From: Dehalobacterium formicoaceticum | GTDB taxonomy: Bacteria > Bacillota > Dehalobacteriia > Dehalobacteriales > Dehalobacteriaceae | Assembly (NCBI RefSeq): GCF_002224645.1 | Contig: NZ_CP022121.1 | Span: forward strand, 434,001 to 498,000 | Direction of reading: 5' to 3' | DNA: 64,000 nucleotides | Shown: piece by piece, positions 12,923 through 63,759 of the stretch | Layout of the letters: each line of letters opens with the position of its first letter | How positions within the stretch are numbered: the first letter of the stretch is position 1 | The notes under the pieces: model-generated | Seen by the model: only the letters and a program-made list of their open reading frames with translations | Told to the model about the DNA's origin: nothing | The model's database searches: none | Translations under genes and position numbers: made by a program

Positions 12923-13552
12923 TTAATTTTTAAGCTCGGCGACCTTCTTATTCATACTGCGCAGATAGTCAATAAAGATGACAAAAATAAAGGCAGCAAA
13001 TAAACTGAGCATAAAGGCTAGTACCCCATTAGTTACAATGTTAGGTGATACCGGTTCCACAGGCAATTGGGCAGCACCTAAAATAGCAATATTATCTACC
13101 TGAGTTAAAGCGACAATGCGCGTTTTTAAAACCTTGGCAATCGAATCCACAACGATTTGGGCATGATAGGGATTTAAATCCCGATAAGTGATGGTAAACA
13201 CCCGAGAATCTGAGAAAGATTCAAAATTGATTCTCTTTCTCAGATCATCAAGAGAAATACTCGTATCCCCGGTTATTTGTCTGGTAACCTCATTTTTTAT
13301 TTCATTTAAAACGCTATCGGTGTTTAAGATCTCCCGATAGTCATTAATGATCTCCCGACCAGCTATTAATTCGTCATAAAAATATTCCGAACCCGAATCA
13401 GGATTTTTTATAATCATCATGGAAACATTCGCTTCATACATTTTAGGGATTACCCAATAACTTAAAGCTGCCATTGTTCCTGCACATAGCAAAGCAAATA
13501 AGATCATGAAACCCAGACTTTTTTTTAATAACTGATAATAATGAATACTCAT
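12923..13552 (-). CDS. Wzz/YveK-type chain-length determinant protein
   Basis: The 209-residue protein has membrane helices near each end (about 11-33 and 172-195) around an extracytoplasmic domain, the usual Wzz layout. Motifs include SYWVIPKMYEANVSMMI and the proline-rich PVEPVSPN just before the second helix. Such proteins control polymer length and in Gram-positives pair with a tyrosine kinase; no kinase gene is seen in the window. The next gene upstream is a second, frameshifted Wzz. Confidence 0.88.
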   Translation of the reverse strand: MSIHYYQLLKKSLGFMILFALLCAGTMAALSYWVIPKMYEANVSMMIIKNPDSGSEYFYDELIAGREIINDYREILNTDSVLNEIKNEVTRQITGDTSISLDDLRKRINFESFSDSRVFTITYRDLNPYHAQIVVDSIAKVLKTRIVALTQVDNIAILGAAQLPVEPVSPNIVTNGVLAFMLSLFAAFIFVIFIDYLRSMNKKVAELKN

Positions 13553-13571
13553 TTCATGCCCTCCAGGATTT

Positions 13572-14182
13572 TTATTCTATGGAATTAATGATTATGTCCT
13601 TTATTAAAACAATCAAAAAAGCACATCCCATGGATACTACCAGAGCGAATGCAGCAAGTTTTTTAAGCGATAGCCCAATAGAGTAAGCAAAATAATTTTT
13701 ATTATCCACAATAATCAACACATTCTCTTGATAGTTTTCCATTATCTCCTGCTGGAGTACGTTGACGATTGATTCGAGTACCGAAGTGGCCTTTTCCGGA
13801 GCGGAATCACGATAACTGATGGAAAAGGTTCTTGCCCCGGGAGTATCATTAAAGATCATATCATCTCTGATACCGTCTTTGATTAAAGAGGGTTTCCCCG
13901 GGTTTAATGTAACCAATTCTTCTTGTACTTTTGCTGCGAAACCATCCGTTCTTATCAGGATTCGAATATCCTTGATCAGCTCCGTCCCCAGAAATAATTC
14001 TCTGGATGTATCTGCTCCATAATTAACCCATAATGTAATGCTCGCTTCATACTGTTTTGGTGCAAAATATTTATACCCCAGTAAAATAGTCGTAACTCCA
14101 AAATAATGAAAAAAATGATGAACAGGGCATTCCTTTTTAGTAAATTGATATAGTAGCTTATTTCCAAAATCAACGCCCCCAT
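13572..14182 (-). pseudogene. Second Wzz-like chain-length determinant, frameshifted
   Basis: Two overlapping frames together encode one Wzz-like protein. The first gives the N-terminal helix (NLLKRNALFIIFFI). After a run of seven T (minus strand, about 14107-14113) homology continues in another frame as YKYFAPKQYEASITLWVNYG and on to the terminal helix ending at 13572. Adding one base in the T run restores about 204 residues, the same size as its neighbour. This may be a real mutation, phase variation or a sequencing error. The initiation codon is also unclear: the ATG at 14182 lacks a good site, and a TTG at 14167 has GGGGG before it. Confidence 0.82.
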
Positions 14183-14185
14183 AAA

Positions 14186-15451
14186 TTAAGAAAATTCACG
14201 TTCTGTTCCCGGCGCCTTGATACATACTAAATATATACTGGTAAAGATAAAAAAGGCCAAATTAGGAGTGGTCATTACGTCTTGATAAAATATACCTGTA
14301 AATAAAGTCAGTAAACTAAATATTGCCACATAATGCTTTAAGCTATAAGCCCCGCTAAAATAAACAATCTTCACAGTCATCAGCACAATAAAGAGCAACT
14401 GAGCAGCAACTCCGGCAACCCCACTATCAATTAAGGTGTTAAATAATTGCGGTCGCGTCCCGCCAAATAAATTTCTGGCATAGTACTTTTCGCTGACTAT
14501 GCCGAAAGCTCCTGTTAGTTGCCCGGAAAACCCGGCACCAATTCCATAGCCAAAAGTTCGGGTAAGAGGTGATCTGTCAATAATATCATACGCGATCATA
14601 GTTTTATTATATCGTCCAATATCCTCACTATTTACTTCAGTCATATATTCCGTGAGATACTCCCTGGAAAATATCTCTGATACCTCCCGATGATAAACCT
14701 GGCGATACATGAAACTCGTCCCATAAAACAAGATAGCAGCACTAAGCACCATAAAAAGCACCTTAGTGACGGTAAATTTTTTCGTCACCCACAAGGTAAT
14801 GACAAACATGATCGGTATCATGACAAAAACAATTTTCGTCTCATTCAATCCAAGGGGCACAAAAAATAAAAAATACCAACCAAAAATACGTTTCCCTTGA
14901 GCCAGTCTTTGGCACAATTCAGAAAAAAATAGGATCAAAAGAAACAGAGACATAATACCGCTGGTGCCATAGCCATACAGCCCTGTTACTATATCCCCAG
15001 AAGGATTACTACTGGAAAATCTCTGGATAATAGAAACCGGAACAGAGATATAACCAATGATGCGCACAATATTATACATCTGATAAAAAACGCGGTCACC
15101 ATGATAATAGAGCAAAATAAGAAAAACAAAGACATATTTATATTGCCGCAATTGAAGCAGGATGACCATGATTTGATTACCATTCAAAAGAGCAAGTACG
15201 GCGCTAAAGACATAACTAAAACACAAAACCGAGACTGCAACAAGAGTGATACGGTCAAAGCCGATTTCAATGCGTTTCTTTTTTACTGCAACCAGAGAAT
15301 CGATCAGTAACAATAAAAAAACAAAATCGTCACTAATCTTGAACATGGTACTATCAGTTATTTGAAGCATCACCTGTGATAACATCGCAACAAGAACCAG
15401 TATGATAAACCGATAATTCAGACTCTCATCCCGTTTCATTATGTCTGCCAT
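14186..15451 (-). CDS. Wzy/O-antigen ligase-like polymerase
   Basis: The 421-residue protein is almost wholly membrane: about ten to twelve hydrophobic segments and one larger external loop (about 245-320; YHREVSEIFSREYLTEYM to ARNLFGGTRPQLFNTLID). A short motif, FGYGIGAGFSG, in the loop resembles those of O-antigen polymerases and ligases. In a locus with Wzx and Wzz it is the expected repeat-unit polymerase. Sequence divergence in this family makes the exact reaction uncertain. Confidence 0.82.
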   Translation of the reverse strand: MADIMKRDESLNYRFIILVLVAMLSQVMLQITDSTMFKISDDFVFLLLLIDSLVAVKKKRIEIGFDRITLVAVSVLCFSYVFSAVLALLNGNQIMVILLQLRQYKYVFVFLILLYYHGDRVFYQMYNIVRIIGYISVPVSIIQRFSSSNPSGDIVTGLYGYGTSGIMSLFLLILFFSELCQRLAQGKRIFGWYFLFFVPLGLNETKIVFVMIPIMFVITLWVTKKFTVTKVLFMVLSAAILFYGTSFMYRQVYHREVSEIFSREYLTEYMTEVNSEDIGRYNKTMIAYDIIDRSPLTRTFGYGIGAGFSGQLTGAFGIVSEKYYARNLFGGTRPQLFNTLIDSGVAGVAAQLLFIVLMTVKIVYFSGAYSLKHYVAIFSLLTLFTGIFYQDVMTTPNLAFFIFTSIYLVCIKAPGTEREFS

Positions 15452-15464
15452 TTGGGTTCCTCTT

Positions 15465-16496
15465 TTATAATTCTCTCTTATTTAAGATCTTCGTGAGCAG
15501 GATCTTTACCTTTAAGTAAGTAAGATCCATCTCTTTGATCACACCAACGCGTTTCAATTGATGCAAATCACATCCAGGGTAATTATGCCCCGGTTCTGTC
15601 GTAACCGCAGAAACATAGATTTCTTTGACTTTTTGCTCTATTTTTTCATCAACATCAGCCAGCTTACCATCAGGATACGCAAAATGAACGTCCTTTGAAA
15701 CTGTAATGCCAATAATTTTCTCCTTACTGACATAAAGCTCCTTTTCAAATTCCGGTAAGGCATTCTTGGCAAGAATCCGATGGGACACAGTGTGGGAACC
15801 AAAATCAATTCCCGCATCAGCCATCCTTTTTATTTCCTGCCAGGTTAATAATCCATTATCCTTTTTTTCTAAGGTCAAACCAATTTCATCAGCGATCTGC
15901 TTAATCATTGTATCCCTTTCCTTGGGAGCATTGTGTTTTATTTTTTGCATTAACGTGTATGCTAAATCCATCTTATCATTATTATTGCTTAATTTTGCCG
16001 ATATTCCCAGACAGGGAATATCCACTCGCTCTTGGTCAATGGATTTTACCAGCTGCTCTACTTGATCATGCCAAAGGGTTTCTCCTGTATCAATGTATCC
16101 TGTGGGCAAGTAAATCATAGGAGTCACCTGATACTTCTGAAAAACTACCATACCATGATCATAATTATTTCGATAACCATCATCAAAAGTACATACCAGA
16201 TAGTTATACTCTAATTCTTTTTCCGTTCTCAAGAGCCGAATACCCTCGTTTAAAGACACGCAACGATATTTCTTGGTGCAATACTTCATTTGTTTTTCAA
16301 AGGCAGCCGCAGTAACACCGAGGGAAGAAATAAAAACGTTTTTCCCCTGTTGAGCTTCCAACTTATGATAAGCCAGGATCACTACTGTTTTTTTTCTCTG
16401 ATATAGTAATGATAAAAGAAAATAAACACCTGTCCAATATATCAGCCAAGCCAGAATCTTCTTAAACATTTCTCTTCTTGCCCTTTTTTTCATCAT
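15465..16496 (-). CDS. Membrane-anchored polysaccharide deacetylase
   Basis: The 343-residue protein has an N-terminal membrane segment (about 15-30) and a NodB-type domain. YLVCTFDDGYRNNYDHG carries the catalytic and metal Asp pair, FGSHTVSHRIL the two metal histidines, and FAYPDGKL the third motif. It probably removes acetyl groups from GlcNAc or ManNAc residues of the polymer on the outer face of the membrane, as in PIA/PNAG systems. AGGAAGTGAC precedes the first ATG. Confidence 0.92.
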   Translation of the reverse strand: MMKKRARREMFKKILAWLIYWTGVYFLLSLLYQRKKTVVILAYHKLEAQQGKNVFISSLGVTAAAFEKQMKYCTKKYRCVSLNEGIRLLRTEKELEYNYLVCTFDDGYRNNYDHGMVVFQKYQVTPMIYLPTGYIDTGETLWHDQVEQLVKSIDQERVDIPCLGISAKLSNNNDKMDLAYTLMQKIKHNAPKERDTMIKQIADEIGLTLEKKDNGLLTWQEIKRMADAGIDFGSHTVSHRILAKNALPEFEKELYVSKEKIIGITVSKDVHFAYPDGKLADVDEKIEQKVKEIYVSAVTTEPGHNYPGCDLHQLKRVGVIKEMDLTYLKVKILLTKILNKREL

Positions 16497-16541
16497 GTCA
16501 CTTCCTGCTTACTCAATCAGTCTTATTAATGAAGCATATCT

Positions 16542-17414
16542 TTAGGTTTCTTCTGCAACCAGGGACAAGATATACTTTCCATATTCCGTCATGTGCAGTT
16601 GTTCCCCGATACGAAGCAACTGTTCCGTATTTATTAACCCTCTGCGCCAAGCGATCTCTTCCAGGCATGCAATGTATAAACCTTGTCTCAACTGTACGGT
16701 TTCAACAAATTCACTGGCCCGAAGAATCCCCTCCGGTGTTCCCGTATCAAGCCATGCCATACCTCGGCCAAACTCAATGACCTTCAATTTATTTCGTGCC
16801 AGATAAGCATTATTAACCGCTGTAATTTCCAACTCACCCCGAGGAGAAGGCTTAACATTATTGGCGATCTCCACTACACCTTGATCATAAAAATATAATC
16901 CGGGAACAGCGTAATGAGATTTCGGTTTAGCCGGTTTTTCTTCCAAAGAAATTACCTGTCTATTTTTATCAAACTCAACGACACCAAAATCAGAAGGATT
17001 TTTTACCCGATAACCGAAAATCACCGCCCCTTCTAAAGCTTCTTGGGCTTCCTGAAGATCTATGGTCAGATTTTGACCATAGAAAACATTATCCCCTAAA
17101 ATCAAGCATACCTCTTCTCCCTCAATAAACTTTTCTCCCAAGATAAATGCTTCCGCCAAACCTCGCGGATCAGACTGAGCCACATAGGACAGGGTAATAC
17201 CCAACTGGGAACCATCACCAAACAGTCTCTGATAATAAGGCAAATCTAGTGGAGTCGAAATAATTAAGATATCCTTTATCTTAGCTAACAGAAGGACTGA
17301 TAAGGGATAATAAATCATCGGTTTATCATAAATTGGCAATAGTTGTTTTGAGACCACCTGGGTCATGGGATATAATCTGGTTCCTTTTCCACCTGCCAGA
17401 ATAATTCCTTTCAT
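16542..17414 (-). CDS. rmlA: Glucose-1-phosphate thymidylyltransferase
   Basis: The 291-residue enzyme has the nucleotidyltransferase signature [17 protein letters not shown], then [28 protein letters not shown] and [20 protein letters not shown], all typical of RmlA. It makes dTDP-glucose from dTTP and glucose-1-phosphate. The ATG at 17414 has AGGTGAGGG just upstream and the conserved N terminus starts there. The dehydratase rmlB and the later rhamnose genes are absent from the window, so the end sugar may instead be an amino sugar made with the adjacent DegT enzyme. Confidence 0.95.
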
Positions 17415-17419
17415 TTCCC

Positions 17420-18526
17420 TCACCTCTCTAAAATGACCTGACAAATTCTTTTCACATCATTTAAATTAAGTGCCCCAAACAAAGGAAGGGTAAGGATCCG
17501 ATCACCGATGTATTTAGCAACCGGCGTTGCCTCTTCTTGATACCGTCCTTCGTAACAGGAAAAGCGGCTCGTTAAAGGATAAAAATATTTGCGTGCGAGA
17601 ATATCTTCCTTTTTCAAGGCCTCTACCACCTCATTTCGGGTTTTACCAAATTCCTTTTCATCAAAAAGAACAGGGAAATAGGCATAATTAGTAGTAACAC
17701 CCTTTTGAGGAGATAGATAGCTCAATCCTCTGATTCCATCCAAATACTCCCGATAGCAATCGACAATTTTTTTACGCAAAGCAATTTGATGATCAATATA
17801 ACGGATGTTGCATATCCCCATGGCCGCCTGAAACTCATTCATTTTTGCGTTTGTCCCAACTTCAGTGACATCTTCAGGAGATGAAATACCAAAGTTCTTT
17901 AAACGACTCAACCTTTCCTCATAACTACTGTCAGAAAAAGTCAGCGCCCCCCCCTCAATGGTATGGAAGACCTTAGTGGCATGAAATGAGAACATAGAAA
18001 TATCACCAAAGCGGCCAATGCCCTGTCCGTTAATTTTGACGCCAAAGGCATGAGCTGCATCATAGATCACCTTGAGACCATACTTCTTTGCAATTTGATC
18101 TATTTTCTCAACATTACATACTTGTCCGTAAACATGTACCGGAACTATAGCCGACGTTTTTTCGGTAATCAAAGCTTCCATCTTAGACGTATCTAAGGTA
18201 AAATCCATAGGACTAATATCACAAAAAACAGGTGTGAGTCCCTGACGTATCAAAGCATGGGTAGTCGAAGCAAAGGTAAAAGGAGTGGTTATAACCTCAC
18301 CGGTAAGCTGCAAGGTCTCGATTGCGCATTCCAAAGCCAGATGACCATTTGTAAACAAGCTAATATTTTTTACATTTAGATAATCCACCAGTAAACCTGT
18401 TAACTTCTGGTGCAAAGGTCCCATATTGGTAAGCAGGCCCGTATCCCAAATGGATTTGATTTCTGCAATATATTCTTCCACCGGTGGCAGGCTGGGAATG
18501 GTGACGGGAATTGATCGTGGCTTCAT
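17420..18526 (-). CDS. DegT/DnrJ/EryC1-family sugar aminotransferase
   Basis: The 368-residue PLP enzyme has the family motifs [33 protein letters not shown] (the Asp binds the PLP ring nitrogen) and [18 protein letters not shown], where the Lys of HATK forms the Schiff base. It transaminates a 3- or 4-keto nucleotide sugar. It ends 5 bases before rmlA, which suggests a joint route to a dTDP-linked amino sugar. Which keto sugar it uses cannot be told. Confidence 0.93.
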
Positions 18527-18558
18527 AATTACTCTCCCCTTGATCCTTCATGATATGA

Positions 18559-20028
18559 TCAACTTTTTTTTCTCAGATCTTTTATGGTGGCCAGAATATA
18601 TGTCAGGCTTTCCAACCTAAACAAAGATGCAGCAATGAAATAGAATGCTGCGCCAATACATATTTGCAAAAACAGGGATAAATAAAGATGGATTGGAAAC
18701 AAGGAAATAAGAAAAACCACCCCGCTCATGGCGATAGAAAGAAGTAACGCAGGCATAAGATCCCTAATCTGCTCCTGAAAGGAATAATGGAATAACTGCT
18801 TATTAGGCCAGGCATTAATGATTGTTCCAATGATGGAGCCCACGGCCTGTCCTGCCACCATGATATAAATCCCAAAGGGTATGGTACCTACAATGATTAA
18901 AATAAATAAACCTTTTTTAATGACTTCCAACTTCAAGAAAATATCGCTGCGTCCAACGGCTTTAAGTGCTTCTAAGTTTGCCGTATGAACAGGATAGAAT
19001 GCAAAAGAGATACAAAGAAGCTGCAAAAAAGGAACACATGGCAGCCATTTTTCTGTAAATAAAAGTAAAATCATGGGCTTGGCTACAATGCCCAAACCAA
19101 ACATCATAGGAAATACAATAAATGCACTGGAAAGCATCGTCCGCCGCATCATTGCTTTAACACGCAAAGGATCATTTTGGTGATGGGACAAGGCGGGAAA
19201 CATCACGCCGGTAATCGTACCATTAATGTTATTTACCAGCATTGCAGGGATACTCTGACCACGGTTGTAAAAGCCCAACATTGTTTTTCCATATAATTTA
19301 CCGATTACGAGAGGATAAATGTTGTTAAAAATCGTATCCAACAATCCTGAAAACAAAAGCTTTGAGCCAAAGCTGAAAAGAATCTTAAGCCTAAAAAAAG
19401 AAAACAATAATTGCGGCCGCCAGCATACACTCAGCCACAAAATAACAGTGGAAACCATCTGCCCTGCAATCTGAGAAAACACCAGACTCCAGATGCCATA
19501 ACCTTGATAGGCCATTGTTATTCCTACCGTACCCGAGGCAAGAATTCCTCCAATGCTTACCAAAAAACTCTTCTTAAATTTCATTTCCCGGGCTAAAACA
19601 ACATATTGAATGTTATTTAGAGCACCGAAAATGACAATCAAAGACAACCAACGAAATACCGGAGTGATGATAGGTTCTTGATAAAAATCGGCAATAAGAG
19701 GGGCCGTCCCCAGAAAGATCACGTAAAGAAAACCAGCAATAATCAGATTGATAAAAAATACCGATGAATAATCCGTTTCATCGACTTCTTCTTTTTGAAT
19801 GAGAGCCGATGAAAAGCCACCCTGCACAAAAGTATCTGCCACAGCAATAAAAACAGTGATCAAAGCGATAATTCCAAAATCCCGCGGCATCAATAAACGG
19901 GCTATAATAATGGAAATGATGAAATGAATGCCTTGGGTACCGCCCCGTTCTAAAAAGCGCCAGAACAGACTGCCTAAGACAGCATTTTTAAATTCTCTTT
20001 TATCAAGCTCTTTAATCGATTTAGTCAT
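18559..20028 (-). CDS. Wzx-type polysaccharide flippase
   Basis: The 489-residue MOP-superfamily protein has about twelve to fourteen membrane helices. The opening GSLFWRFLERGGTQGIHFIISIIIARLL and GFYNRGQSIPAMLVNNINGT are typical of lipopolysaccharide translocases of the WzxC/TuaB group. It moves the lipid-linked repeat unit across the cytoplasmic membrane to the polymerase. It lies among the glycosyltransferase genes in the same direction. Confidence 0.92.
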   Translation of the reverse strand: MTKSIKELDKREFKNAVLGSLFWRFLERGGTQGIHFIISIIIARLLMPRDFGIIALITVFIAVADTFVQGGFSSALIQKEEVDETDYSSVFFINLIIAGFLYVIFLGTAPLIADFYQEPIITPVFRWLSLIVIFGALNNIQYVVLAREMKFKKSFLVSIGGILASGTVGITMAYQGYGIWSLVFSQIAGQMVSTVILWLSVCWRPQLLFSFFRLKILFSFGSKLLFSGLLDTIFNNIYPLVIGKLYGKTMLGFYNRGQSIPAMLVNNINGTITGVMFPALSHHQNDPLRVKAMMRRTMLSSAFIVFPMMFGLGIVAKPMILLLFTEKWLPCVPFLQLLCISFAFYPVHTANLEALKAVGRSDIFLKLEVIKKGLFILIIVGTIPFGIYIMVAGQAVGSIIGTIINAWPNKQLFHYSFQEQIRDLMPALLLSIAMSGVVFLISLFPIHLYLSLFLQICIGAAFYFIAASLFRLESLTYILATIKDLRKKS

Positions 20029-20164
20029 AATAAAGTTGTGTCAAAGCTTGAGGTTTTACTTTAATAAACTGGTTCACGATGGTCATCTATCCTCCTAAAA
20101 TATTTATCTGACATCTCCCAGAGCCGCTTCCAGGTTACGAAAGAGAATGAAGTTGAGGGCATTG

Positions 20165-21166
20165 CTATTTTAGTGCTTGATGATGTTCGGTCTCAACACG
20201 TAACAGATGTTTCTTGACGGTGCGTCTGAAATTCTCATATAGATTATTCATTCCAGGTATATACCAGCAAAGGACGTACTCCATTTTATCCTTTAAAACT
20301 AATTGGTTAAACAGCTTTTTAATTTCTCCATCTTTTAAATAATGTTTGTCTCCTAATAGCGCACGTATTTCTGTACACCATTCCAATTTCTTCTTTTGAA
20401 CCTCATATTCCCACTTACCATGAGAAAATTCATTAAATCCATTTAATGTCTTGATCATTCCTTGGAGATGATGCACCTTGTCTTCCTTTGTAGACTCATG
20501 ATTGTATTTTGTAACCCATGAACCGGGAACCCAAAGATTGCGCACAGACATCACTTCATCCATATAACCAATTCTCCCAGAGGCCAACATCACTAAGGAG
20601 AAAGCAAAATCCCCTACCAGAGCTTCATGATAAAACTGGGGTGGATTTTTCATTAACTCACGAACATAGATCACTGAAGCTGTAGGACATTTAGGCCCTC
20701 CTCCATAGAAAAAATTATTCTCGGGCAAAATATGTGTTTTGTTAAAAGGACGTATATAAGCAACCCTGGTATTATTTCTCACATCGATGACCTCTGCGGC
20801 GTGAAAACACATGCTGCATTCCGGATGAGCTTCCATAAAGTCTACCTGTTTTTGTAGTTTCTGAGGATCCGTCCAATAATCATCCCCCTCACACTCGGCA
20901 ATATATTTACCGGAGGACTTTGCATAAACCCGGCGGTAGTTTTCTATCATGCCTACATTTTGATCTGAGGTGATTAATTTAATCTTTTCGGGATATTGAT
21001 TAGCATAGCTTTCTATGACTTTTCGCGTGCCATCTGTGCTGCAATCTTCCCCAATCAGGATTTCAAAATCAAAATCTGTTTGTTGCATTATAAAGCCTTC
21101 GATGGCATCCCCAATATAATTTTCATGATTGTAGGTAATACAAATCACACTTACCAATACAGCCAT
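20165..21166 (-). CDS. Glycosyltransferase family 2
   Basis: The 333-residue GT-A enzyme begins VSVICITYNHENYIGDAIEG and has FEILIGEDCSTDGTRKVIE and ECEGDDYWTDPQKLQKQVDFM, giving the DxD-like EGDD metal site. It has no clear membrane segment. It lies upstream of wzx in the cluster, after a 136-base gap, and probably adds one sugar of the repeat unit. An upstream AGGAACAT sequence is the likely ribosome binding site. Confidence 0.93.
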   Translation of the reverse strand: MAVLVSVICITYNHENYIGDAIEGFIMQQTDFDFEILIGEDCSTDGTRKVIESYANQYPEKIKLITSDQNVGMIENYRRVYAKSSGKYIAECEGDDYWTDPQKLQKQVDFMEAHPECSMCFHAAEVIDVRNNTRVAYIRPFNKTHILPENNFFYGGGPKCPTASVIYVRELMKNPPQFYHEALVGDFAFSLVMLASGRIGYMDEVMSVRNLWVPGSWVTKYNHESTKEDKVHHLQGMIKTLNGFNEFSHGKWEYEVQKKKLEWCTEIRALLGDKHYLKDGEIKKLFNQLVLKDKMEYVLCWYIPGMNNLYENFRRTVKKHLLRVETEHHQALK

Positions 21167-21186
21167 AGATATGTTCCTCCCACATT

Positions 21187-22329
21187 TTAATCCCCAGTAT
21201 ATATCTTTCTTAAATGGGCAATCAATACCTTTCCTTGCTCTTTCCAGGTATATCTCCTGCTAACAAAATTGCGCAAAAAATTTGATTGAGCATTCAAGAA
21301 TTCAACTTTCTCGCAAGCTTCAGTAATCCCACTGACAAAAGCATTCTCATCATCACCTTTGGTATAAATAATACCATCCATATCACCTAAAACATCTCGA
21401 TGAGCAGGTATTGGTGTCAGTAGCACAGGTTTGCCGCAAGCAAGATATTCAAATACTTTCAAGGGGCTGGACACATTCCATTCTAATCGATCCGGGAGCG
21501 GACTAACACAAATGTCAGCTTCATTAATTAAGCCTGGCATCGATTCATAAGGCTGGAGCCCCAGAAAACGAACATGCTCTTTCATGCCTAAATCATCTGT
21601 GCTTTTTTTAATAAACTCAAGCTCTGGTCCATCTCCTGCAATAGTTAAAAAAACATCATTTCTGCCATGCTGAATCACTTGGGCAAAAGCATTAATAAAG
21701 GTCAAAATGCCCCGCTTAATCGTGATGTGACCATGATAAAAGAAATGAATAGATTTTGCACCTTCTCTATTATTTGGCAAAATTTTAAACAACTCCGTAT
21801 TAACAGCAGATGACCAGATGACATAATCATGGAAATGGTGATTAAATTCTTTTTCCACTTCACTTTTTAATGTTTCAGAAATAAAGGAAAAACTGTCCGC
21901 ATCTTCCAGAAACCACTTGATCATAATCTTCCAAAAAATATATCGATCTAAATGGCCTTTCCATGAAATAATATCACAAGGCAGGGTGCGAAAGTCCAGA
22001 TGAACCTTGGCGTTTTTCTTTTTAGCCACAAGGGTAAGAGCTAAGGCAGCCGGTTGGCAAATTAATAAATCATCCTGTTGTAAATTTTTCATCAAATAAA
22101 GCAAGATGCGAAAAATTAAAATCAGGCGAAATAAAAAAGGAACTGCCGGTGCATAAATATATTGAAAAAGATAATTCAAATCTTCTGGGATGAATTTACT
22201 TTTCTTATAGCTGGTAATAAAACAAACCTCATATCCACTTTTTGCAAGTTCATTGCATATTTCGATGAAAGTTGATTTATCGGTCTTAAGATCAAAATAG
22301 TTTAAATCAGCCCAGAATATCCTTCTCAT
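21187..22329 (-). CDS. Glycosyltransferase family 4
   Basis: The protein of about 380 residues is GT-B: YLMKNLQQDDLLICQP, FFYHGHITIKRGILTFI, FLGLQPYESMPGLINEADICVSPL and FEYLACGKPVLLTPIPAHRDVL with the expected donor-site glutamate. The frame extends twelve codons further, but the ATG at 22329 has AGGA at a proper distance and begins MRRIFWADLNYFD. It is on the minus strand and is preceded, about 40 bases away, by a polysaccharide lyase gene. Confidence 0.88.
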   Translation of the reverse strand: MRRIFWADLNYFDLKTDKSTFIEICNELAKSGYEVCFITSYKKSKFIPEDLNYLFQYIYAPAVPFLFRLILIFRILLYLMKNLQQDDLLICQPAALALTLVAKKKNAKVHLDFRTLPCDIISWKGHLDRYIFWKIMIKWFLEDADSFSFISETLKSEVEKEFNHHFHDYVIWSSAVNTELFKILPNNREGAKSIHFFYHGHITIKRGILTFINAFAQVIQHGRNDVFLTIAGDGPELEFIKKSTDDLGMKEHVRFLGLQPYESMPGLINEADICVSPLPDRLEWNVSSPLKVFEYLACGKPVLLTPIPAHRDVLGDMDGIIYTKGDDENAFVSGITEACEKVEFLNAQSNFLRNFVSRRYTWKEQGKVLIAHLRKIYTGD

Positions 22330-22368
22330 ATTCCACATCCTGTCGTATGCTATATCTTTTTGCATATA

Positions 22369-23229
22369 TTATCTAATTTCAATGGAATCATAATATACTA
22401 CCCTTTTATCAAGGGACGAGTTCCCGGGATTTTCTTCCCAATCCCATTTATAGATTCCTAACTTCATATAAACGCCCTGTTTATCATTTTTAGTATTAGG
22501 CACTCCGGTTCTGGCAAAGATTCTCTTCCCATCTTTAAATATTTCCAACTGTGGTTTATGAGATCTTTCCCAGCCCCATTTAACATGAAAAGTCCAATCT
22601 ACCCATCTACCTTTATCGGCATTATATTCGCCCAAGGTTACATATTCAGATAATCTCTCATCCTTAATTCTTTCCTGGGTAGATAAAGGGGATTGGTCCC
22701 AGACCCGTCCAATTTGATAAAACCCGTTAATCGTCATCAAAGCTAAAGAAGGGGAAAGCCACTCTTCACCAAAATCAGGAACATCATGCCATTGAGCAAT
22801 AATTTCACCGCTGGAAGGATCGATTCCGTAGTCTTCATCCCCTCGTAAGGGAAGGAAAGTGCTAAAAGAGTACCAATGTTCTTCTAAAGCTGCTTCCATG
22901 GGAAGGGATATTTCGGCCCTTTTACTTTCATCAATATTAGGGTCATTTTCCCTTAATTCGACACGCAAAGAGGAATTTCCTGTCCTCGCCCGGTGATTAA
23001 TAATTTGAGCGGAATAATTACGATTAGCCAAACTTTGGCGCCATTCTTTCTTCAAATGTCCTGATTCAAAATCCTCTGAAAAAAGCACCGGCAGATCATC
23101 CGGCATAGACAGCTTCTTTGGCAGGTAATCCCCTATCCTCATGAAAAAACCGTTAAAAAACACCCCCAAAAATATGATGATCAGTAAACTCAACAAGCAT
23201 ATCTTTCTATTTCCCCTCATAACCCCCAC
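22369..23229 (-). CDS. Exported polysaccharide lyase (PF14099-like)
   Basis: The 286-residue protein has a basic N terminus and one hydrophobic segment (about 10-27), so it is exported or anchored. The rest is a jelly-roll like heparin lyase I/glucuronan lyase proteins: FSEDFESG, RAEISLPMEAALEEHWYSF, GEIIAQWHDVPDFGEEW, WVDWTFHVKWGW and VYMKLGIYKWDWEENPG. It probably cleaves a uronic-acid-rich polymer, perhaps the one made here. A close paralogue lies at 24587-25687, and this copy lacks the repeat region. Confidence 0.86.
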   Translation of the reverse strand: MGVMRGNRKICLLSLLIIIFLGVFFNGFFMRIGDYLPKKLSMPDDLPVLFSEDFESGHLKKEWRQSLANRNYSAQIINHRARTGNSSLRVELRENDPNIDESKRAEISLPMEAALEEHWYSFSTFLPLRGDEDYGIDPSSGEIIAQWHDVPDFGEEWLSPSLALMTINGFYQIGRVWDQSPLSTQERIKDERLSEYVTLGEYNADKGRWVDWTFHVKWGWERSHKPQLEIFKDGKRIFARTGVPNTKNDKQGVYMKLGIYKWDWEENPGNSSLDKRVVYYDSIEIR

Positions 23230-23255
23230 CTGCCTAAGAAATTCCCTTGATAATT

Positions 23256-24332
23256 TTACACAGATGTATCCGCATTAGAAAAATTAAGATTCAGCTTTCT
23301 AATTATCTTGGCAAATAGCAATAATACAGATGCCAGGAAGATATTACGGGATTTAAACGCCCAGTATTTACATTTAAGATCCAACGGCTTTGACTGCATG
23401 TCCTTCTTATTAATTTTTTTAATCGCACTTAAAACATTTTCATCATTGATGATTTCTAGCATTCTTTTTATTTTTTGTAATACATTGATATCCCTATAAT
23501 GCAAGATCTTAACCATTGAGTCATAAGCTAGTTCCAAGCACCTGATAGAAGCCAAAGATAAATAAGGAGCTGTCCCCATGCCCCAAAGCTGCATGCAGGC
23601 TAAAACTTTCTGGTGTAAATCCATTCTCAGTTGAAAATAGTTATTCAGTGAGCGACGACGGCTGCTGCCATAATAATTTCTATAATAATATAAAGGTTCA
23701 TCAATTTGAAAACAGCGCTTCATGTAGGTAAAAACATCCAAATAGAAATAATAATCTTCTTGTAAAAGAAGACCCTCCAGAAATAAAATTTTATTTTCCT
23801 CTAAAAATTTTCGATCATAAATTTTATTACAGCATGAGGTGAAAATTTCCCCTTTGATGACAGGTAAGTATATCTCTTCCCGGATATTAGATTGATCCAC
23901 GATTCCCGGCGAGATAAACATCTTTTCTTCTTGTTCTATTCGCCTCAGCGTAGAATCTTCGTAAAAGAAGCTAAAATTGCAGGATACGATATCGCAATGG
24001 TGCTCTTTGCCTGCATCATAAAGCACCTTAAACATGCTGGCATCGACCCAGTCATCGCCATCCACAAATCCAATATACTCACCCCCGGCACATTTAATGC
24101 CTGAATTTCGGGCAGCACTTAACCCAGCATTAGGCTGATGAATTACCTTGACACGAGCATCTTTTAAGGCATACTCATCACATAACCTCCCGCATTGATC
24201 CGTGGAACCATCATCAACCAAGATGATTTCGATGTTACTTAAGGTCTGCACCACCAAAGAATCAATACACTGATGTAAATATTTTTCCACATTATATATC
24301 GGAACTATTATACTTACCGCAGTAAATTCCAT
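23256..24332 (-). CDS. Glycosyltransferase family 2 (EpsJ-like)
   Basis: The 358-residue GT-A enzyme starts VSIIVPIYNVEKYLHQCIDSL and has EIILVDDGSTDQCGRLCDEYA, GLSAARNSGIKCAGGEYIGFVDGDDWVD with the DxD metal site. It is a standard capsule or exopolysaccharide transferase of the EpsJ type. It seems to be the first gene of the long minus-strand run ending at 5728. Its upstream region holds a palindrome over a possible -10 box. Confidence 0.94.
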   Translation of the reverse strand: MEFTAVSIIVPIYNVEKYLHQCIDSLVVQTLSNIEIILVDDGSTDQCGRLCDEYALKDARVKVIHQPNAGLSAARNSGIKCAGGEYIGFVDGDDWVDASMFKVLYDAGKEHHCDIVSCNFSFFYEDSTLRRIEQEEKMFISPGIVDQSNIREEIYLPVIKGEIFTSCCNKIYDRKFLEENKILFLEGLLLQEDYYFYLDVFTYMKRCFQIDEPLYYYRNYYGSSRRRSLNNYFQLRMDLHQKVLACMQLWGMGTAPYLSLASIRCLELAYDSMVKILHYRDINVLQKIKRMLEIINDENVLSAIKKINKKDMQSKPLDLKCKYWAFKSRNIFLASVLLLFAKIIRKLNLNFSNADTSV

Positions 24333-24453: not shown

Positions 24454-24511
24454 TGTCCATGGCTAAGAAATATTTACTCTATGATAATATATATTACAAG
24501 CCTTTCTTTCA

Positions 24512-24557
24512 AAAAAAGTAAGTCTAACCCATAAAAAATTGTTAGACTTACTTTTTT
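24512..24557 (-). terminator. Terminator of the riboswitch-controlled lyase gene
   Basis: A 17-bp perfect inverted repeat (24512-24528 with 24541-24557) has A runs on one side and T runs on the other, so it can act in both directions. It sits 30 bases after the stop codon of the lyase at 24587. Confidence 0.9.
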
Positions 24558-24586: not shown

Positions 24587-25687
24587 TTAATTTATTGAAA
24601 TCTCATCAAAATAAACAACTCTGTTATCGATTTTTGATATATCCGGATTTTCTTTCCAATCCCATTTATAAATACCTAATTTCATATATACGCCGTTTTC
24701 ATCATTGGTGGTATTCGGCAAACCATTTCGATCAAAAACTTTTTTGCCGTCTTTATATATTTCCAGGATAGGATCCTGGGATTCATGCCAACCCCATTTA
24801 ACATGAAAAGTCCAATCAACCCATTTACCTTTATCCTCAAGATAAGACCCAATGGTTTCATACTCAAAATTGCCTTTTCCCCTCATGGAGCTATTCGAAG
24901 AAAATTTAGCATCGTCCCAACATCTCCCAATTTCATAACCACCTCGGACAGTAGCTAAATATAGGGGGGGCGATGTCCATTCCTCTCCCTCATCAGGATA
25001 ATTATGCCACTGAACCAGGATTTCACCGCTATTATTATCCAAAGCGTAATCTTCGGTACCACCAAGGGGAAGGTAGGTGCTAAAGGAATACCAATGCTCT
25101 TCCAATGGGTCTTCCATTCCTAAAGCCAGTTCTGATCTTCTGCTTCCACTGACATCAGCATCCGTTTTTCTAAGTTCCATGCGTAAAGAATAATCTCCCT
25201 CACTGGCAATTGTGTCCACAACTTTAGCTGCATAGCTATTACGGGCAATTTCCTTGTTCCATTCCCTTGCAATACTTCCGGATTCAAAACCATCTAAAAA
25301 TAAATAGGTATCTTTTACCTCTTCCGGTTCTGTTACTACTTCTGGCTCCGTTACTACTTCCGGCTCCGTCACCACTTCCGGCTCCGTCACCACTTCCGGC
25401 TCCGTCACCACTTCCGGCTCCGTTACTACTTCCGGCTCCGTCACCACTTCCGGCTCCGTCACCACTTCCGGCTCTGTTACTACTTCCGGCTCTGGTAATA
25501 CTTCTGGCTCTGGTAATACCGGTGCCGGTTTTCTGTTCCTTTCAAGAAACTCAGCGTAATATGCCTTGATATCAAATCGTGATATACTGCTCTTTTTTAC
25601 CCTGGGAGCAGCAAAAGCACTGATCGTGCCTGCCAATAAGGTAATAATCAAAACAATTACCAGTCCCAAAATTTTTTTTGACTTCAT
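24587..25687 (-). CDS. Secreted polysaccharide lyase with Pro/Glu-rich tandem repeat, c-di-GMP-controlled
   Basis: The 366-residue protein has a signal peptide (1-27, ending SAFAA), a linker of about eleven six-residue units (mostly VTEPEV, about 59-123), and a polysaccharide lyase domain (about 127-366) close to that at 22369: SRRSELALGMEDPLEEHWYSF, GEILVQWHNYPDEGEEW, WVDWTFHVKWGW. The linker probably spaces the catalytic domain through the cell wall. AAGGAGGAG precedes the ATG; a CTCC four bases before it could pair with that site. Two cyclic di-GMP-I aptamers precede the gene. Confidence 0.9.
   Translation of the reverse strand: MKSKKILGLVIVLIITLLAGTISAFAAPRVKKSSISRFDIKAYYAEFLERNRKPAPVLPEPEVLPEPEVVTEPEVVTEPEVVTEPEVVTEPEVVTEPEVVTEPEVVTEPEVVTEPEVVTEPEEVKDTYLFLDGFESGSIAREWNKEIARNSYAAKVVDTIASEGDYSLRMELRKTDADVSGSRRSELALGMEDPLEEHWYSFSTYLPLGGTEDYALDNNSGEILVQWHNYPDEGEEWTSPPLYLATVRGGYEIGRCWDDAKFSSNSSMRGKGNFEYETIGSYLEDKGKWVDWTFHVKWGWHESQDPILEIYKDGKKVFDRNGLPNTTNDENGVYMKLGIYKWDWKENPDISKIDNRVVYFDEISIN
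25318..25519 (-). repeat. 18-bp tandem repeat encoding VTEPEV/LPEPEV units
   Basis: About eleven in-frame copies of an 18-base unit encode two LPEPEV, eight VTEPEV and a final VTEPEE. Several units are identical at the DNA level while others differ at synonymous sites (tcc/tct, acc/act), which suggests recent expansion by slippage or unequal exchange. Confidence 0.95.
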
Positions 25688-25823
25688 AATTTCTCCTCCT
25701 TTTTGGAGTCGAAATTACCATTGCAAATGGAATCCATTAACAGAAGAAACAACTTGTACAATCGGCAACTTAAAGGTTGACGGACTACAGAATATCATAC
25801 TGCAATTAACAGAATTTCGCGTG

Positions 25824-25910
25824 CAATTGGTAACCCGACTATCTTAGCTAAACACCTTAGACTCGTGGTTTTGCGTCCCTACCTTTCAGTAGGTTTGCCT
25901 TTTTCAATTG
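25824..25910 (-). ncRNA. Cyclic di-GMP-I (GEMM-I) riboswitch, proximal copy
   Basis: On the minus strand the sequence closes with a CAATTG/CAATTG P1 stem, then shows GGCAAACC, a CTAC-TGAAAG-GTAG hairpin with GAAA tetraloop, the invariant GGGACGCAAA joining segment, a second stem-loop containing a tetraloop-receptor-like CCTAAG/GTCTAAG element, and GTCGGGTTACC at the 3' side. Order and bases agree with the Vc2-type aptamer of Vibrio cholerae. It ends about 137 bases before the lyase start codon. Confidence 0.95.
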
Positions 25911-25970
25911 TCTTGCTAGAGTTAAATATCGTCTGACAATAAAATACAGCGGATCACCACAGCTTTCAAT

Positions 25971-26072
25971 ATTACCCTGGTAACCCGACCACCTTATCAA
26001 TCTTTTTTGATTTAAGGTTCGTTAGCTTTGCGTCCCTATCTTTTGATAGGCTCGCCTTTTTCATTTCATTGG
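25971..26072 (-). ncRNA. Cyclic di-GMP-I (GEMM-I) riboswitch, distal copy
   Basis: A second aptamer lies upstream of the first in the same leader: GGCGAGCC, hairpin CTATC-AAAA-GATAG, GGGACGCAAAGC, a long second stem (ACCTTA to GATAAGGT) and GGTCGGGTTACC. It keeps the core but differs from the proximal copy by an AAAA in place of the GAAA tetraloop and GCGAG in place of GCAAA. That may weaken its tertiary contact or change its affinity. Confidence 0.92.
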
Positions 26073-26092
26073 TTTAATTACCCACGGTAGTT

Positions 26093-26121
26093 AATTTACC
26101 ACAACAAATTTATTACGTCAA
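26093..26121 (-). promoter_or_regulatory. Sigma-A-type promoter for the riboswitch-lyase transcript
   Basis: On the minus strand TTGACG (26121-26116) and TAAATT (26098-26093) are separated by 17 bases. Transcription would start near 26086, just before the distal aptamer, so both riboswitches and the lyase lie on one transcript. Confidence 0.65.
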
Positions 26122-26341: not shown

Positions 26342-27307
26342 TTGAAAAAGAAGCGAATTATTGGCGTCATCTCACTCATTTTCCTCATTGTGGCCGGATC
26401 ATTCTTCATAATGTCCAGGTTTGGATTAACATTACCTGCACTTCTTTCCGGAGATCCTTTCAATTCCAAAGCATTACTGCTCCCCGATGATCCGGCGCCG
26501 CCCTCTGCTTCTTCTGATGGATCAGAAAGCAAAGATCCGGAGGAATTTCAAGATGTCCATTCCATTAATATTCTTTTATTAGGTATTGACCGGAATGAGG
26601 AAAGAGAAGAATATATGGGGGTATTTCGCTCCGACATGATCTCTTTGATTAAACTTGATTTAGATGATAATAATGTCAATGTATTAGCAATTCCAAGAGA
26701 TACCTACACCTATGTTCCTGTAGAAGGGAAAAAGGATAAGATTAACCATGCTTATGCTTATGGAAGCATGAATGATCAAGGGGTAGAAAGCATTTCCGAA
26801 GCGGTCTCTCAGTTTACCGGTTTACCTATCGATTACTATATTTCTCTCGATATGGGGCCCATACCGGATATTGTTGATGAAATTGGGGGTGTCGAGATAG
26901 ACGTTGAAATCGACATGAAAACCCACGGTGCCGATCTGTCCAAAGGTCTGCAGGTATTGAACGGACAACAGGCTTTTGATTACATCCATTGGCGCTATTC
27001 CGCCAACGGGGATATTGACCGTATGAAAAGGCAACAGAAATTCTTGAAAGCCTTATTTAAACAGCAAAAAGATTCCGGCAAATTAGTGGAAAGTGTCCGG
27101 ACGCTCTTGAGATACAAAGATAGCCTGGGTACCAATCTGACTCCGGCCCAGATGATTGCACTGGCCAAATTTGCTAATAAAGTCCCTAATGAAGGAGTAA
27201 ATTATTTCACAGTACCAGGTAATGCCCAAACGATTAAAAAGATCTCTTACTGGGTGCCGGATCTTGCTGCCACCAAAGAAATCATTGAAGCATCCTTTAT
27301 TGATTGA
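26342..27307 (+). CDS. LytR-CpsA-Psr (LCP) family glycopolymer transferase
   Basis: The 321-residue protein has a short cytoplasmic N terminus, one membrane helix (about 6-24), a low-complexity Pro/Ser stretch and an LCP domain (about 75-321) with RSDMISLIKLD, LAIPRDTYTYVP and KINHAYAYG, which carry the Asp and Arg residues that bind the polyprenyl pyrophosphate. LCP enzymes attach capsule or teichoic polymers to peptidoglycan. The start is a TTG with AAGGAG 9 bases upstream. It is the likely last step of the locus. Confidence 0.93.
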   Translation: MKKKRIIGVISLIFLIVAGSFFIMSRFGLTLPALLSGDPFNSKALLLPDDPAPPSASSDGSESKDPEEFQDVHSINILLLGIDRNEEREEYMGVFRSDMISLIKLDLDDNNVNVLAIPRDTYTYVPVEGKKDKINHAYAYGSMNDQGVESISEAVSQFTGLPIDYYISLDMGPIPDIVDEIGGVEIDVEIDMKTHGADLSKGLQVLNGQQAFDYIHWRYSANGDIDRMKRQQKFLKALFKQQKDSGKLVESVRTLLRYKDSLGTNLTPAQMIALAKFANKVPNEGVNYFTVPGNAQTIKKISYWVPDLAATKEIIEASFID

Positions 27308-58948: not shown

Positions 58949-60538
58949 ATGATCACAATGAACATCAAGCAACAAATTTTAATGATGCATATTCATGAAG
59001 GGAAATCGCGCCGGGAAATTGCGAAAATAACAGGGATCAATCGGGACACCGTAGGAAAGTACATTGGACAATATGAGGAAGGGAGACAGCAATTATTGTC
59101 GAGCGGGTCGGCAGATATCCAGGCACTAGTCGACACCCTCACTTCTGCCCCCAAGTATACTGTGGGCATTCGACCCAAAAGAAAAATGACTGACGAGGTT
59201 GTGAACAGGATCCAGTTCTATCTTGACGAGAATGAAACTAAGCGAAATCAGGGGCGGCACAAGCAGCAAAAAAAAGCCATTGATATCTTTGAAGCACTGG
59301 AAGCCGAGGGTACTCAACTAAGTTACAGTACCGTTCTTCGAACCATTAGAAGCTTGGAACGGAAACCAAAGGAAGCGTTTATTAAGGCTCTGTATGAACT
59401 TGGAGACATTTGCGAATTTGATTGGGGTGAGGTTAAACTAAAAATTAATGGAAAATTTCAAGTTTTTCAGATGGCCGTATTCACAACGGCTTACGGGAAC
59501 TATCGCTTTGCTTATCTGTTCACCAAACAAACAACAGAGTGTTTTCAGGAAGCACACGCCCTGTTTTTCCAGCATATCGGCCAAGTGTATCGTACCATGG
59601 TGTACGATAACATGAAAGTCGCGGTGAAAAGGTTTATTGGAACGGAGAAGGAGCCGACGCAAGGATTGCTTCAATTGTCGCTCTACTATGGTTTTCAGTA
59701 TCGGTTTTGCAATATTCGCAAGGGCAACGAAAAAGGTCATGTGGAGCGAAGCGTCGAGGTCGTTCGCCGAAAAGCCTTCGCTTTTCGGGACGAATTTGAA
59801 TCCCTGGAGGAGGCAAATCAATATTTGCAGGATGTGTGCACTAAGCGTAATCGTAAGTCCCATGATGAGTACAACGGCCAGACGGCGGAGGAACGATTGG
59901 AAGAAGAGCGCCCCGCATTGCTGCCCACCCTTCCACCATTTGATGCAGCTCGCGTGATTTATGGACGGGTGAACAAATATTCCACCATCATCGTTGATCA
60001 GAATCGTTACTCAGTACCGGATCATTTGGTAGGTGAATCGATCATGATTAAAGCATATGCGACCCGGGTGCGATGCTTCCATCAGGAATCCTTGGTAGCG
60101 GAGCATGTGCGATTAACCGGCAACCACGAGTGGCGGCTTGATCTGAATCATTATTTGGATACGCTAAGGAAAAAACCTGGTGCATTTGCCGGTAGTGCGG
60201 CATGGCAGCAGGCTCCTAAAAGGATAAAAGAAATATACGAAACATATTATACCAAACAAGACAAGGAATTTATACAGCTATTGCAATATATTCGAGACGA
60301 TGTCCCATTTGCGGAAGTCGAGCAAGCTATTCGGGAGCTGGAGAAAATTCATCCGGCTCAAGTGACTACGGATAAAATTAAAGTGCTTTGTGCTAGGAAT
60401 CGTGACGCGATGCCTGTTGTTCAACCAAATCTCTCGAAAACGGGAAAAGAGATTGTAGAGCGGTCAGCACAGCAGCTTCGCATGTACGATGACATGTTTG
60501 ATACCCATACACCAAAAGCAAAGGAGGACGTTGCATGA
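58949..60538 (+). CDS. istA: IS21-family transposase IstA
   Basis: The 529-residue protein has an N-terminal HTH (IHEGKSRREIAKITGINRDTV), a DDE integrase core (about 145-275; CEFDWGEVKLKINGKFQVFQ, VYDNMKVAVKRF, KGHVERSVEVVRR supply the D, D and E) and a C-terminal beta-barrel (YSVPDHLVGESIMIKAY). It cuts and joins the DNA ends. GGGAGAG precedes the start. It looks intact. Confidence 0.95.
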   Translation: MITMNIKQQILMMHIHEGKSRREIAKITGINRDTVGKYIGQYEEGRQQLLSSGSADIQALVDTLTSAPKYTVGIRPKRKMTDEVVNRIQFYLDENETKRNQGRHKQQKKAIDIFEALEAEGTQLSYSTVLRTIRSLERKPKEAFIKALYELGDICEFDWGEVKLKINGKFQVFQMAVFTTAYGNYRFAYLFTKQTTECFQEAHALFFQHIGQVYRTMVYDNMKVAVKRFIGTEKEPTQGLLQLSLYYGFQYRFCNIRKGNEKGHVERSVEVVRRKAFAFRDEFESLEEANQYLQDVCTKRNRKSHDEYNGQTAEERLEEERPALLPTLPPFDAARVIYGRVNKYSTIIVDQNRYSVPDHLVGESIMIKAYATRVRCFHQESLVAEHVRLTGNHEWRLDLNHYLDTLRKKPGAFAGSAAWQQAPKRIKEIYETYYTKQDKEFIQLLQYIRDDVPFAEVEQAIRELEKIHPAQVTTDKIKVLCARNRDAMPVVQPNLSKTGKEIVERSAQQLRMYDDMFDTHTPKAKEDVA

Positions 60539-61314
60539 GTAACGCGCCGCGCAAGGCGTTTAAGGAAGCGATATTGGAATATAGCAAAGAACTGAGACTC
60601 CCTATGATTCGTAAGCATTTGGATGAGCAAGTTCGGGAGTCAACGCAGCAGGATGCCAGTTATGAAGCATTTCTGGCGCAGTTACTGGAGAAGGAATGTG
60701 ATGCTCGTCGGGAAGCCTCGCGGCATAATCGCATTCGTCTGGCTGAATTTACACATAAAAAGTACCTTGAAGATTTGGTCATCGCGGATTTGCCAGATGA
60801 TGCCCAAAAGAAGTTAAAGCAGCTGAAAACATTAGAGTTTATTCAGGAGGGGCGCAACATTATTCTGGCGGGGAACCCGGGAACAGGCAAGACGCATGTG
60901 AGTATTGGGCTAGGCTTAAAGGCCTGCCTGGAGGGATATAAAGTATGGTTTACAACTGTTCCCCTCCTCATTAACCGGATTAAAGAATGCCGAGCAGAGC
61001 AAACTCTTCGAGCCTTCCAGAACCGCTTTGAAAAATATGATTTGGTTATTGCCGATGAAATGGGTTATATATCTTTTGATAAGGAAGGATCTGAATTATT
61101 GTTTACCCATTTGTCGCTGAGGGCTGGTCGCAAATCGACAATCATCACAACCAACTTATCCTTCGAACGATGGGGTGAAATTTTTCAGGATCCCGTGATG
61201 ACGGCGGCCATGATTGACCGGTTGACGCATCAGTCATACATCGTCAACATGAATGGAAACTCGTACCGCATGAAAGAAACGAAGGAGTGGTTACAACAAC
61301 AGCAACTGGCATGA
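60535..61314 (+). CDS. istB: IS21-family helper ATPase IstB
   Basis: The 259-residue DnaC-like AAA+ ATPase has Walker A LAGNPGTGKTHVSIGLGL, Walker B LVIADEMGYISFD, and the IstB tail SFERWGEIFQDPVMTAAMIDRL. It selects the target and stimulates IstA. The start codon overlaps the istA stop (ATGA). The same protein, identical over its whole length, is encoded at 62980-63759. Confidence 0.97.
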   Translation: MSNAPRKAFKEAILEYSKELRLPMIRKHLDEQVRESTQQDASYEAFLAQLLEKECDARREASRHNRIRLAEFTHKKYLEDLVIADLPDDAQKKLKQLKTLEFIQEGRNIILAGNPGTGKTHVSIGLGLKACLEGYKVWFTTVPLLINRIKECRAEQTLRAFQNRFEKYDLVIADEMGYISFDKEGSELLFTHLSLRAGRKSTIITTNLSFERWGEIFQDPVMTAAMIDRLTHQSYIVNMNGNSYRMKETKEWLQQQQLA

Positions 61315-62979: not shown

Positions 62980-63759
62980 TCATGCCAGTTGCTGTTGTTG
63001 TAACCACTCCTTCGTTTCTTTCATGCGGTACGAGTTTCCATTCATGTTGACGATGTATGACTGATGCGTCAACCGGTCAATCATGGCCGCCGTCATCACG
63101 GGATCCTGAAAAATTTCACCCCATCGTTCGAAGGATAAGTTGGTTGTGATGATTGTCGATTTGCGACCAGCCCTCAGCGACAAATGGGTAAACAATAATT
63201 CAGATCCTTCCTTATCAAAAGATATATAACCCATTTCATCGGCAATAACCAAATCATATTTTTCAAAGCGGTTCTGGAAGGCTCGAAGAGTTTGCTCTGC
63301 TCGGCATTCTTTAATCCGGTTAATGAGGAGGGGAACAGTTGTAAACCATACTTTATATCCCTCCAGGCAGGCCTTTAAGCCTAGCCCAATACTCACATGC
63401 GTCTTGCCTGTTCCCGGGTTCCCCGCCAGAATAATGTTGCGCCCCTCCTGAATAAACTCTAATGTTTTCAGCTGCTTTAACTTCTTTTGGGCATCATCTG
63501 GCAAATCCGCGATGACCAAATCTTCAAGGTACTTTTTATGTGTAAATTCAGCCAGACGAATGCGATTATGCCGCGAGGCTTCCCGACGAGCATCACATTC
63601 CTTCTCCAGTAACTGCGCCAGAAATGCTTCATAACTGGCATCCTGCTGCGTTGACTCCCGAACTTGCTCATCCAAATGCTTACGAATCATAGGGAGTCTC
63701 AGTTCTTTGCTATATTCCAATATCGCTTCCTTAAACGCCTTGCGCGGCGCGTTACTCAT
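62980..63759 (-). CDS. istB: IS21-family helper ATPase IstB, second copy
   Basis: The 259-residue product is identical to IstB of the first copy, with Walker A in GNPGTGKTHVS and Walker B in LVIADEMGY. Its ATG overlaps the istA stop codon. Identity shows the two elements are recent copies. Confidence 0.97.
   Translation of the reverse strand: MSNAPRKAFKEAILEYSKELRLPMIRKHLDEQVRESTQQDASYEAFLAQLLEKECDARREASRHNRIRLAEFTHKKYLEDLVIADLPDDAQKKLKQLKTLEFIQEGRNIILAGNPGTGKTHVSIGLGLKACLEGYKVWFTTVPLLINRIKECRAEQTLRAFQNRFEKYDLVIADEMGYISFDKEGSELLFTHLSLRAGRKSTIITTNLSFERWGEIFQDPVMTAAMIDRLTHQSYIVNMNGNSYRMKETKEWLQQQQLA

Follow-up and report, generated by a model that had tools for sequence, protein, structure and literature searches.

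The lyase gene and its surroundings

The DNA analysed here, hereafter the window, is a stretch of 64,000 nucleotides comprising bases 434001-498000 of the single-contig, 3,766,545-bp genome of Dehalobacterium formicoaceticum. The relevant features, in window positions, are the following:

26342..27307, plus strand: divergent LytR-CpsA-Psr gene (PF03816, 2.8e-38)
26093..26121, minus strand: candidate promoter, TTGACG-17-TAAATT with an extended -10 (TG), 9/12 consensus positions
25976..26066, minus strand: distal c-di-GMP-I aptamer (RF01051, 62.1 bits), with an AAAA tetraloop and GGCGAGCC
25825..25908, minus strand: proximal c-di-GMP-I aptamer (RF01051, 82.0 bits, E 1.8e-16), with a GAAA tetraloop and GGCAAACC
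25824..25910, minus strand: closing helix P1 of the proximal aptamer, in which CAATTG (25910-25905) pairs with CAATTG (25829-25824)
25709..25725, minus strand: TGCAATGGTAATTTCGA, a stretch complementary to TCGGGTTACCAATTGCA (3' strand of the proximal aptamer)
25687..25717, minus strand: ribosome-site hairpin, which includes the first start-codon base and the Shine-Dalgarno sequence GGAGG
24587..25687, minus strand: secreted polysaccharide lyase of 366 aa, with a signal peptide, about ten PEVVTE-type repeats and a PF14099 domain
24511..24551, minus strand: probable intrinsic terminator after the lyase gene, judged from its sequence (AGTAAGTCTAAC ... GTTAGACTTACTTTTTTT)
22369..23229, minus strand: second PF14099 lyase (6.4e-34)
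12923..24332, minus strand: exopolysaccharide genes (Pfam and NCBIfam), the second lyase among them

An earlier, sequence-only reading had proposed that the regulated gene encodes a secreted lyase within an exopolysaccharide locus. This was borne out by its PF14099 domain (5.4e-36; 124.9 bits, cut-off 29.9) and by the neighbouring genes for a Wzx flippase, RmlA and glycosyltransferases; Wzz-like and (weakly) Wzy_C-like proteins, a deacetylase and a DegT aminotransferase are also encoded there. The signal peptide was read from the sequence. No GEMM core was present in the 700 bases upstream of the second lyase gene. Elsewhere in the window, a T-box leader (RF00230, 112 bits; 44529-44268, minus strand) lies upstream of an ORF of 653 aa (44204-42243), and an IS21-like element with istA- and istB-like ORFs (58949-61314) splits a 23S rRNA gene (62171-56549); an identical copy of its istB-like ORF is located at 62980-63759.

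The predicted structure of the riboswitch-bearing lyase (mean pLDDT 69.8, pTM 0.75) has its best PDB match in the Trichoderma glucuronan lyase TrGL (2zzj; TM 0.71, E 1.9e-12), followed by heparin lyase I and PL7 alginate lyases. The likeness to TrGL, an endo-beta-1,4-glucuronan lyase, and to heparin lyase I (3ikw) lies in the predicted jelly-roll fold, and the position of TrGL Tyr200 is aligned in the window protein. The two differ in that identity is 17%, the fungal R-x-H-x-E motif (catalytic residues from PMC7601620) corresponds to R-x-E-x-R, the window lyase carries a His in a QWH motif, and the window enzyme is bacterial and encoded within an exopolysaccharide synthesis locus. Given the replacement of R-x-H-x-E by R-x-E-x-R, we can only infer the substrate: the lyase probably acts on a uronic-acid-type polymer, most plausibly the cell's own exopolysaccharide.

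Two c-di-GMP-I aptamers in one leader

Two RF01051 matches had been predicted on the minus strand, and Rfam cmscan placed them where expected (26066-25976 and 25908-25825), both above the gathering score of 35 bits. The proposed common core of the two copies (GGGACGCAAA and GGGTTACC) is indeed present, as are the proposed differences between them, GAAA in the proximal against AAAA in the distal tetraloop and GGCAAACC against GGCGAGCC. The tetraloop alone tells little, since another aptamer of the same genome, scoring 84 bits, also has AAAA. The distal copy deviates at two conserved A positions (in GGCGAGCC), and may bind more weakly.

In a clan-filtered Rfam scan, clan competition assigned the proximal aptamer to the sister family RF03167 (70.4 bits). 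The places of G20, A47 and C92 of Vc2 were located on the window aptamers through what we take to be the Vc2 sequence, and G, A and C stand there in both copies. In Vc2 these three bases contact the ligand (PMC4744006). Moreover, the contact segments GGC, GACGCA and TTACC/CTACC occur in both copies and in all seven aptamers of the relatives described below. An RF03167 (c-di-GMP-I-GGC) identity was rejected: the consensus of that model around A47 is GACGCGAA, in which G replaces A47, whereas both copies and the seven relative aptamers have A, and the RF03167 gathering score was passed despite this A. The c-AMP-GMP (GEMM-Ib) variant, which has A instead of G20 (PMC9481103), was likewise rejected, as both copies have G at that position. 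The bases at the contact places thus favour c-di-GMP over c-AMP-GMP and over GGC variants, and c-di-GMP is the putative ligand of both aptamers. In core sequence, P2/P3 layout and contact bases the window copies resemble RF01051 without difference; what differs is the regulated gene, a PF14099 lyase apparently undescribed as a target.

The genome contains four GEMM-I aptamers, the window pair and two singles, and encodes six GGDEF domains and one EAL domain. Both singles are followed by apparent terminator hairpins and have an integrase or serine recombinases nearby; they lie ahead of sigma-factor-like ORFs (L034 3930-4017, plus strand; L035 6403-6315, minus strand). The elements that carry them look integrative, and c-di-GMP may have a bearing on the activity of such elements. 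Outside apparent integrative elements, the genome thus has no GEMM-I other than the tandem pair. This fits the earlier suggestion that c-di-GMP acts on the degrading enzyme rather than on the synthase, which is supported for this genome with the other two GEMM-I in mobile elements.

A candidate promoter had been proposed upstream of the distal aptamer. It is present, but the density of such matches is at chance level (5, against 2.9 +/- 1.9 in shuffles). The proposed absence of an intrinsic terminator between the proximal aptamer and the lyase start was upheld: none was found on the minus strand between either aptamer and that start, and no U-tract directly follows either window aptamer in the sequence. 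A tandem of the serial-terminator type, or of the pseudo-cooperative type with independent platforms, was rejected, there being no terminator behind either aptamer and a single ribosome site.

The window lyase start codon lies about 140 bases behind the proximal aptamer. A CTCC ahead of the GGAG had been suggested to hide the ribosome site; the two are separated by a loop of five A bases and form the tip of a longer hairpin (25717-25687), in which TAATTTC pairs with GAAATTA in addition to CTCC with GGAG. The hairpin has a folding energy of -15.0 kcal/mol (shuffle mean -6.0 +/- 2.1), a stability equalled by 2/2000 shuffles. Its 5' arm is overlapped by TGCAATGGTAATTTCGA, which can form a duplex of -16.1 kcal/mol with TCGGGTTACCAATTGCA. 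The core part of this duplex (-13.8 kcal/mol) was equalled by 95/2000 shuffles; the match between the P1 strand and the stretch downstream is thus only modestly unusual, which weakens the switch model.

Folding calculations, which leave out tertiary contacts and the ligand and in which a state with P1 forced to form is a proxy for the bound state, gave a cost of 8.2 kcal/mol for opening the region from the Shine-Dalgarno sequence to the start when P1 was not forced and of 12.3 kcal/mol when P1 was formed. This rise of 4.1 kcal/mol was reached by one of 60 leaders with shuffled spacers, and the value for the closed state by none of the 60. The full anti-sequestor fold (-55.2 kcal/mol) is predicted to lie 4.4 kcal/mol above the best fold (-59.6 kcal/mol) and still has GGAG in a 4-bp stem. 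Free energy thus does not support the full anti-sequestor as the stable ligand-free fold, and it was kept only as a possible partial rearrangement. The weak point of the model is accordingly that a different fold is predicted to be more stable than the full ligand-free rearrangement, which makes the switch, as computed, graded and not all-or-none.

Recurrence of the pairing among Bacillota

The lyase was searched for in about 490 different Bacillota genomes, taken from 398 phylum-wide genomes, 43 of its own class, 83 of the G266 class and four of the G185 class. Its subfamily was found in four of these, namely the present genome, G266, G185 and G455, which belong to four different families. 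In all four, one lyase paralog and no other has a tandem GEMM-I array in the roughly 360 bases upstream of it, with two copies each in this genome, G266 and G455 and three in G185, all above the gathering score; the other five lyase paralogs of the four genomes have no GEMM-I upstream. A more distant homolog (43% identity) from a MAG of the cyanobacterium Richelia is likewise without GEMM-I. With so few GEMM-I per genome (4, 6, 19 and 4 in this genome, G266, G185 and G455), the pairing of tandem and lyase is not due to chance. That two tandem c-di-GMP-I riboswitches control the lyase, the central proposal of the sequence-only reading, is accordingly strongly supported, both by the pair directly upstream of the gene and by the recurrence of the arrangement in 3/3 of the other lyase genomes.

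One homologous exopolysaccharide cluster is common to G266, G455 and G185. A cluster shared by all four genomes was rejected, the one in the window being largely different: it overlaps with those of the relatives in the lyases, RmlA (G455), the LCP protein (G185), partial glycosyltransferase matches and little else. The window aptamers and expression platform are also unlike those of the three relatives. As judged by these sequence comparisons, the conserved feature is the association of tandem c-di-GMP sensors with a lyase. Orthology of the riboswitch-bearing lyases, and with it a single descent of the arrangement, is not supported by the tree, which groups paralogs by genome and not by riboswitch (moderate support). 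This grouping implies that the pairing arose repeatedly, or that it persisted while paralogs were homogenised.

Two of the relatives' lyases deserve separate description. The G455 paralog without a riboswitch (L050 16165-17031) has QWQN and GVCK where the other eight lyases have QWH and G[IL]YK, and from these motifs may be inactive. The riboswitch-bearing lyase of G185 (L051 4916-7393) has six CHB_HEX_C_1 / Fn3-associated repeats before its lyase domain; the spacer thus differs from the PEVVTE repeats of the window lyase, and the lyase domain is kept.

In G266, G185 and G455 the proximal aptamer is immediately followed by the Shine-Dalgarno GGAG, whose GAG can extend P1 by pairing with a CUC before the aptamer. 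Outside this CUC/GAG core, G455 has UU/AA where G185 has AA/UU, and G266 has the core only. The upstream copies of G185 retain the P1-extension helix via a G-U pair.

These leaders bear on whether control is exerted by termination instead of translation, with the folded aptamer and a U-rich tract of the relatives possibly acting as a weak terminator. U-tracts do lie right behind P1 of the distal copies in G266, G455 and G185; however, no intrinsic terminator was found on the coding strand behind the aptamers of any of the four leaders, and the window aptamers have no U-tract directly behind them, which makes transcriptional control quite improbable. Translational control, as had been suggested from the position of the CTCC, is supported by the folding results and by the P1 helix covering the ribosome site in the relatives.

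The same leaders also speak to the possibility that only the proximal aptamer works and that the distal copy is a decaying, functionless duplicate. Such decay would account for the lower score of the window distal copy, its lack of a GAAA tetraloop and its GGCGAGCC, and also for the upstream copies of G185, which resemble duplications of the whole unit with GGGG at the Shine-Dalgarno place. Two or three copies in 4/4 loci, all above gathering and with an invariant core, would however not be expected under drift, and a functionless distal copy is considered unlikely. Rather, the distal copy probably makes the response steeper or widens its range.

Direction of control and comparison with known systems

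Taken together, the data point, with somewhat better than even confidence, to a translational OFF switch in which the lyase is made at low c-di-GMP and both aptamers jointly control its translation. At high c-di-GMP the proximal aptamer would fold and P1 would close, so that the 3' strand of P1 would be unavailable. The Shine-Dalgarno sequence and start codon would then be locked in the hairpin 25717-25687, no lyase would be made and the matrix would be kept. At low c-di-GMP the 3' strand of P1 would be free to pair with TGCAATGG(TAATTT), in which TGCAATGG occupies 25725-25718, shortening or opening the ribosome-site hairpin; lyase would be made, and polymer would be freed or remodelled. In the relatives the same outcome would be reached more directly, with P1 itself pairing with the Shine-Dalgarno sequence: since the ligand stabilises P1, the ribosome site would be hidden in the bound state. 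The window platform is unlike that of the relatives, so that their direction need not carry over. We infer the OFF direction from both, and the models of the window leader and of the relatives alike favour translational OFF at high c-di-GMP.

The opposite direction, in which binding of c-di-GMP opens the ribosome site and the lyase trims, shapes or releases the polymer during synthesis, appears rather unlikely. Lyases and hydrolases in synthesis loci can act during polymer export, which counts in its favour. Moreover, many tandem c-di-GMP-I riboswitches are ON switches, for example the Bacillus thuringiensis triplet (PMC4759541). Against an ON switch stand the pairing of the ligand-stabilised P1 with the Shine-Dalgarno sequence in three relatives and the raised opening cost upon P1 formation in the window leader.

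On the favoured OFF reading, the detachment of slime is probably timed by the signal, with the lyase most likely blocked at high c-di-GMP. A broader proposal, which we put forward tentatively and at a little short of an even chance, is that tandem c-di-GMP-I aptamers and a matrix-cutting lyase form a recurrent Bacillota module, found in unrelated exopolysaccharide loci and with two expression platforms, in which several terminator-less aptamers act on a single ribosome site and even a slight drop in c-di-GMP would release an enzyme that dissolves the cell's own matrix. Whereas most work on c-di-GMP treats it as a switch for matrix production, the RNA sensor here sits on an enzyme predicted to dismantle it. 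It thereby becomes possible to test directly whether anaerobic Gram-positives disperse, via a polymer-cutting enzyme, in response to a fall in c-di-GMP, and the natural two- and three-aptamer leaders without terminators provide material for studying the role of extra aptamers at one ribosome site.

Tandem c-di-GMP-I riboswitches are common, with 347 doublets and 12 triplets in a survey that lists doublets and triplets only (PMC9481103). An array of five consecutive c-di-GMP-I aptamers was observed in a 6,441,270-bp genome of the same family (L036, G002:C1:3430000-3438000; minus strand 5454-4213), where it precedes tad-type genes and two Flp-like pilin ORFs; a similar AGCTCTATTTGG...AGAGCT stem comes after each of the five aptamers, and a scored terminator after at least three. 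The B. thuringiensis triplet Bc3-5, a set of serial transcriptional ON switches (PMC4759541), resembles the window in having a leader with at least two class I aptamers, as do the arrays of the survey (PMC9481103). Each Bc3-5 unit has its own terminator and acts as a transcriptional ON switch, whereas the window leader has no terminators, one ribosome site behind the last aptamer and a predicted OFF response.

The aptamer class and the tandem layout are therefore known, and the lyase target and its recurrence appear to be undescribed; no paper that appeared to describe the pairing of a c-di-GMP riboswitch with a polysaccharide lyase was found in the open-access library searched. The closest regulatory logic is that of Clostridioides difficile PPEP-1 (Zmp1, CD2830), which is controlled by a class I c-di-GMP riboswitch and strips adhesins at low c-di-GMP (PMC11477304). 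In both cases a secreted enzyme would free surface material at low c-di-GMP; PPEP-1, however, is an adhesin-cutting protease, whereas the window encodes a predicted polysaccharide lyase behind tandem aptamers and a translational platform. The lyase system would thus be a polysaccharide counterpart of the PPEP-1 protease.
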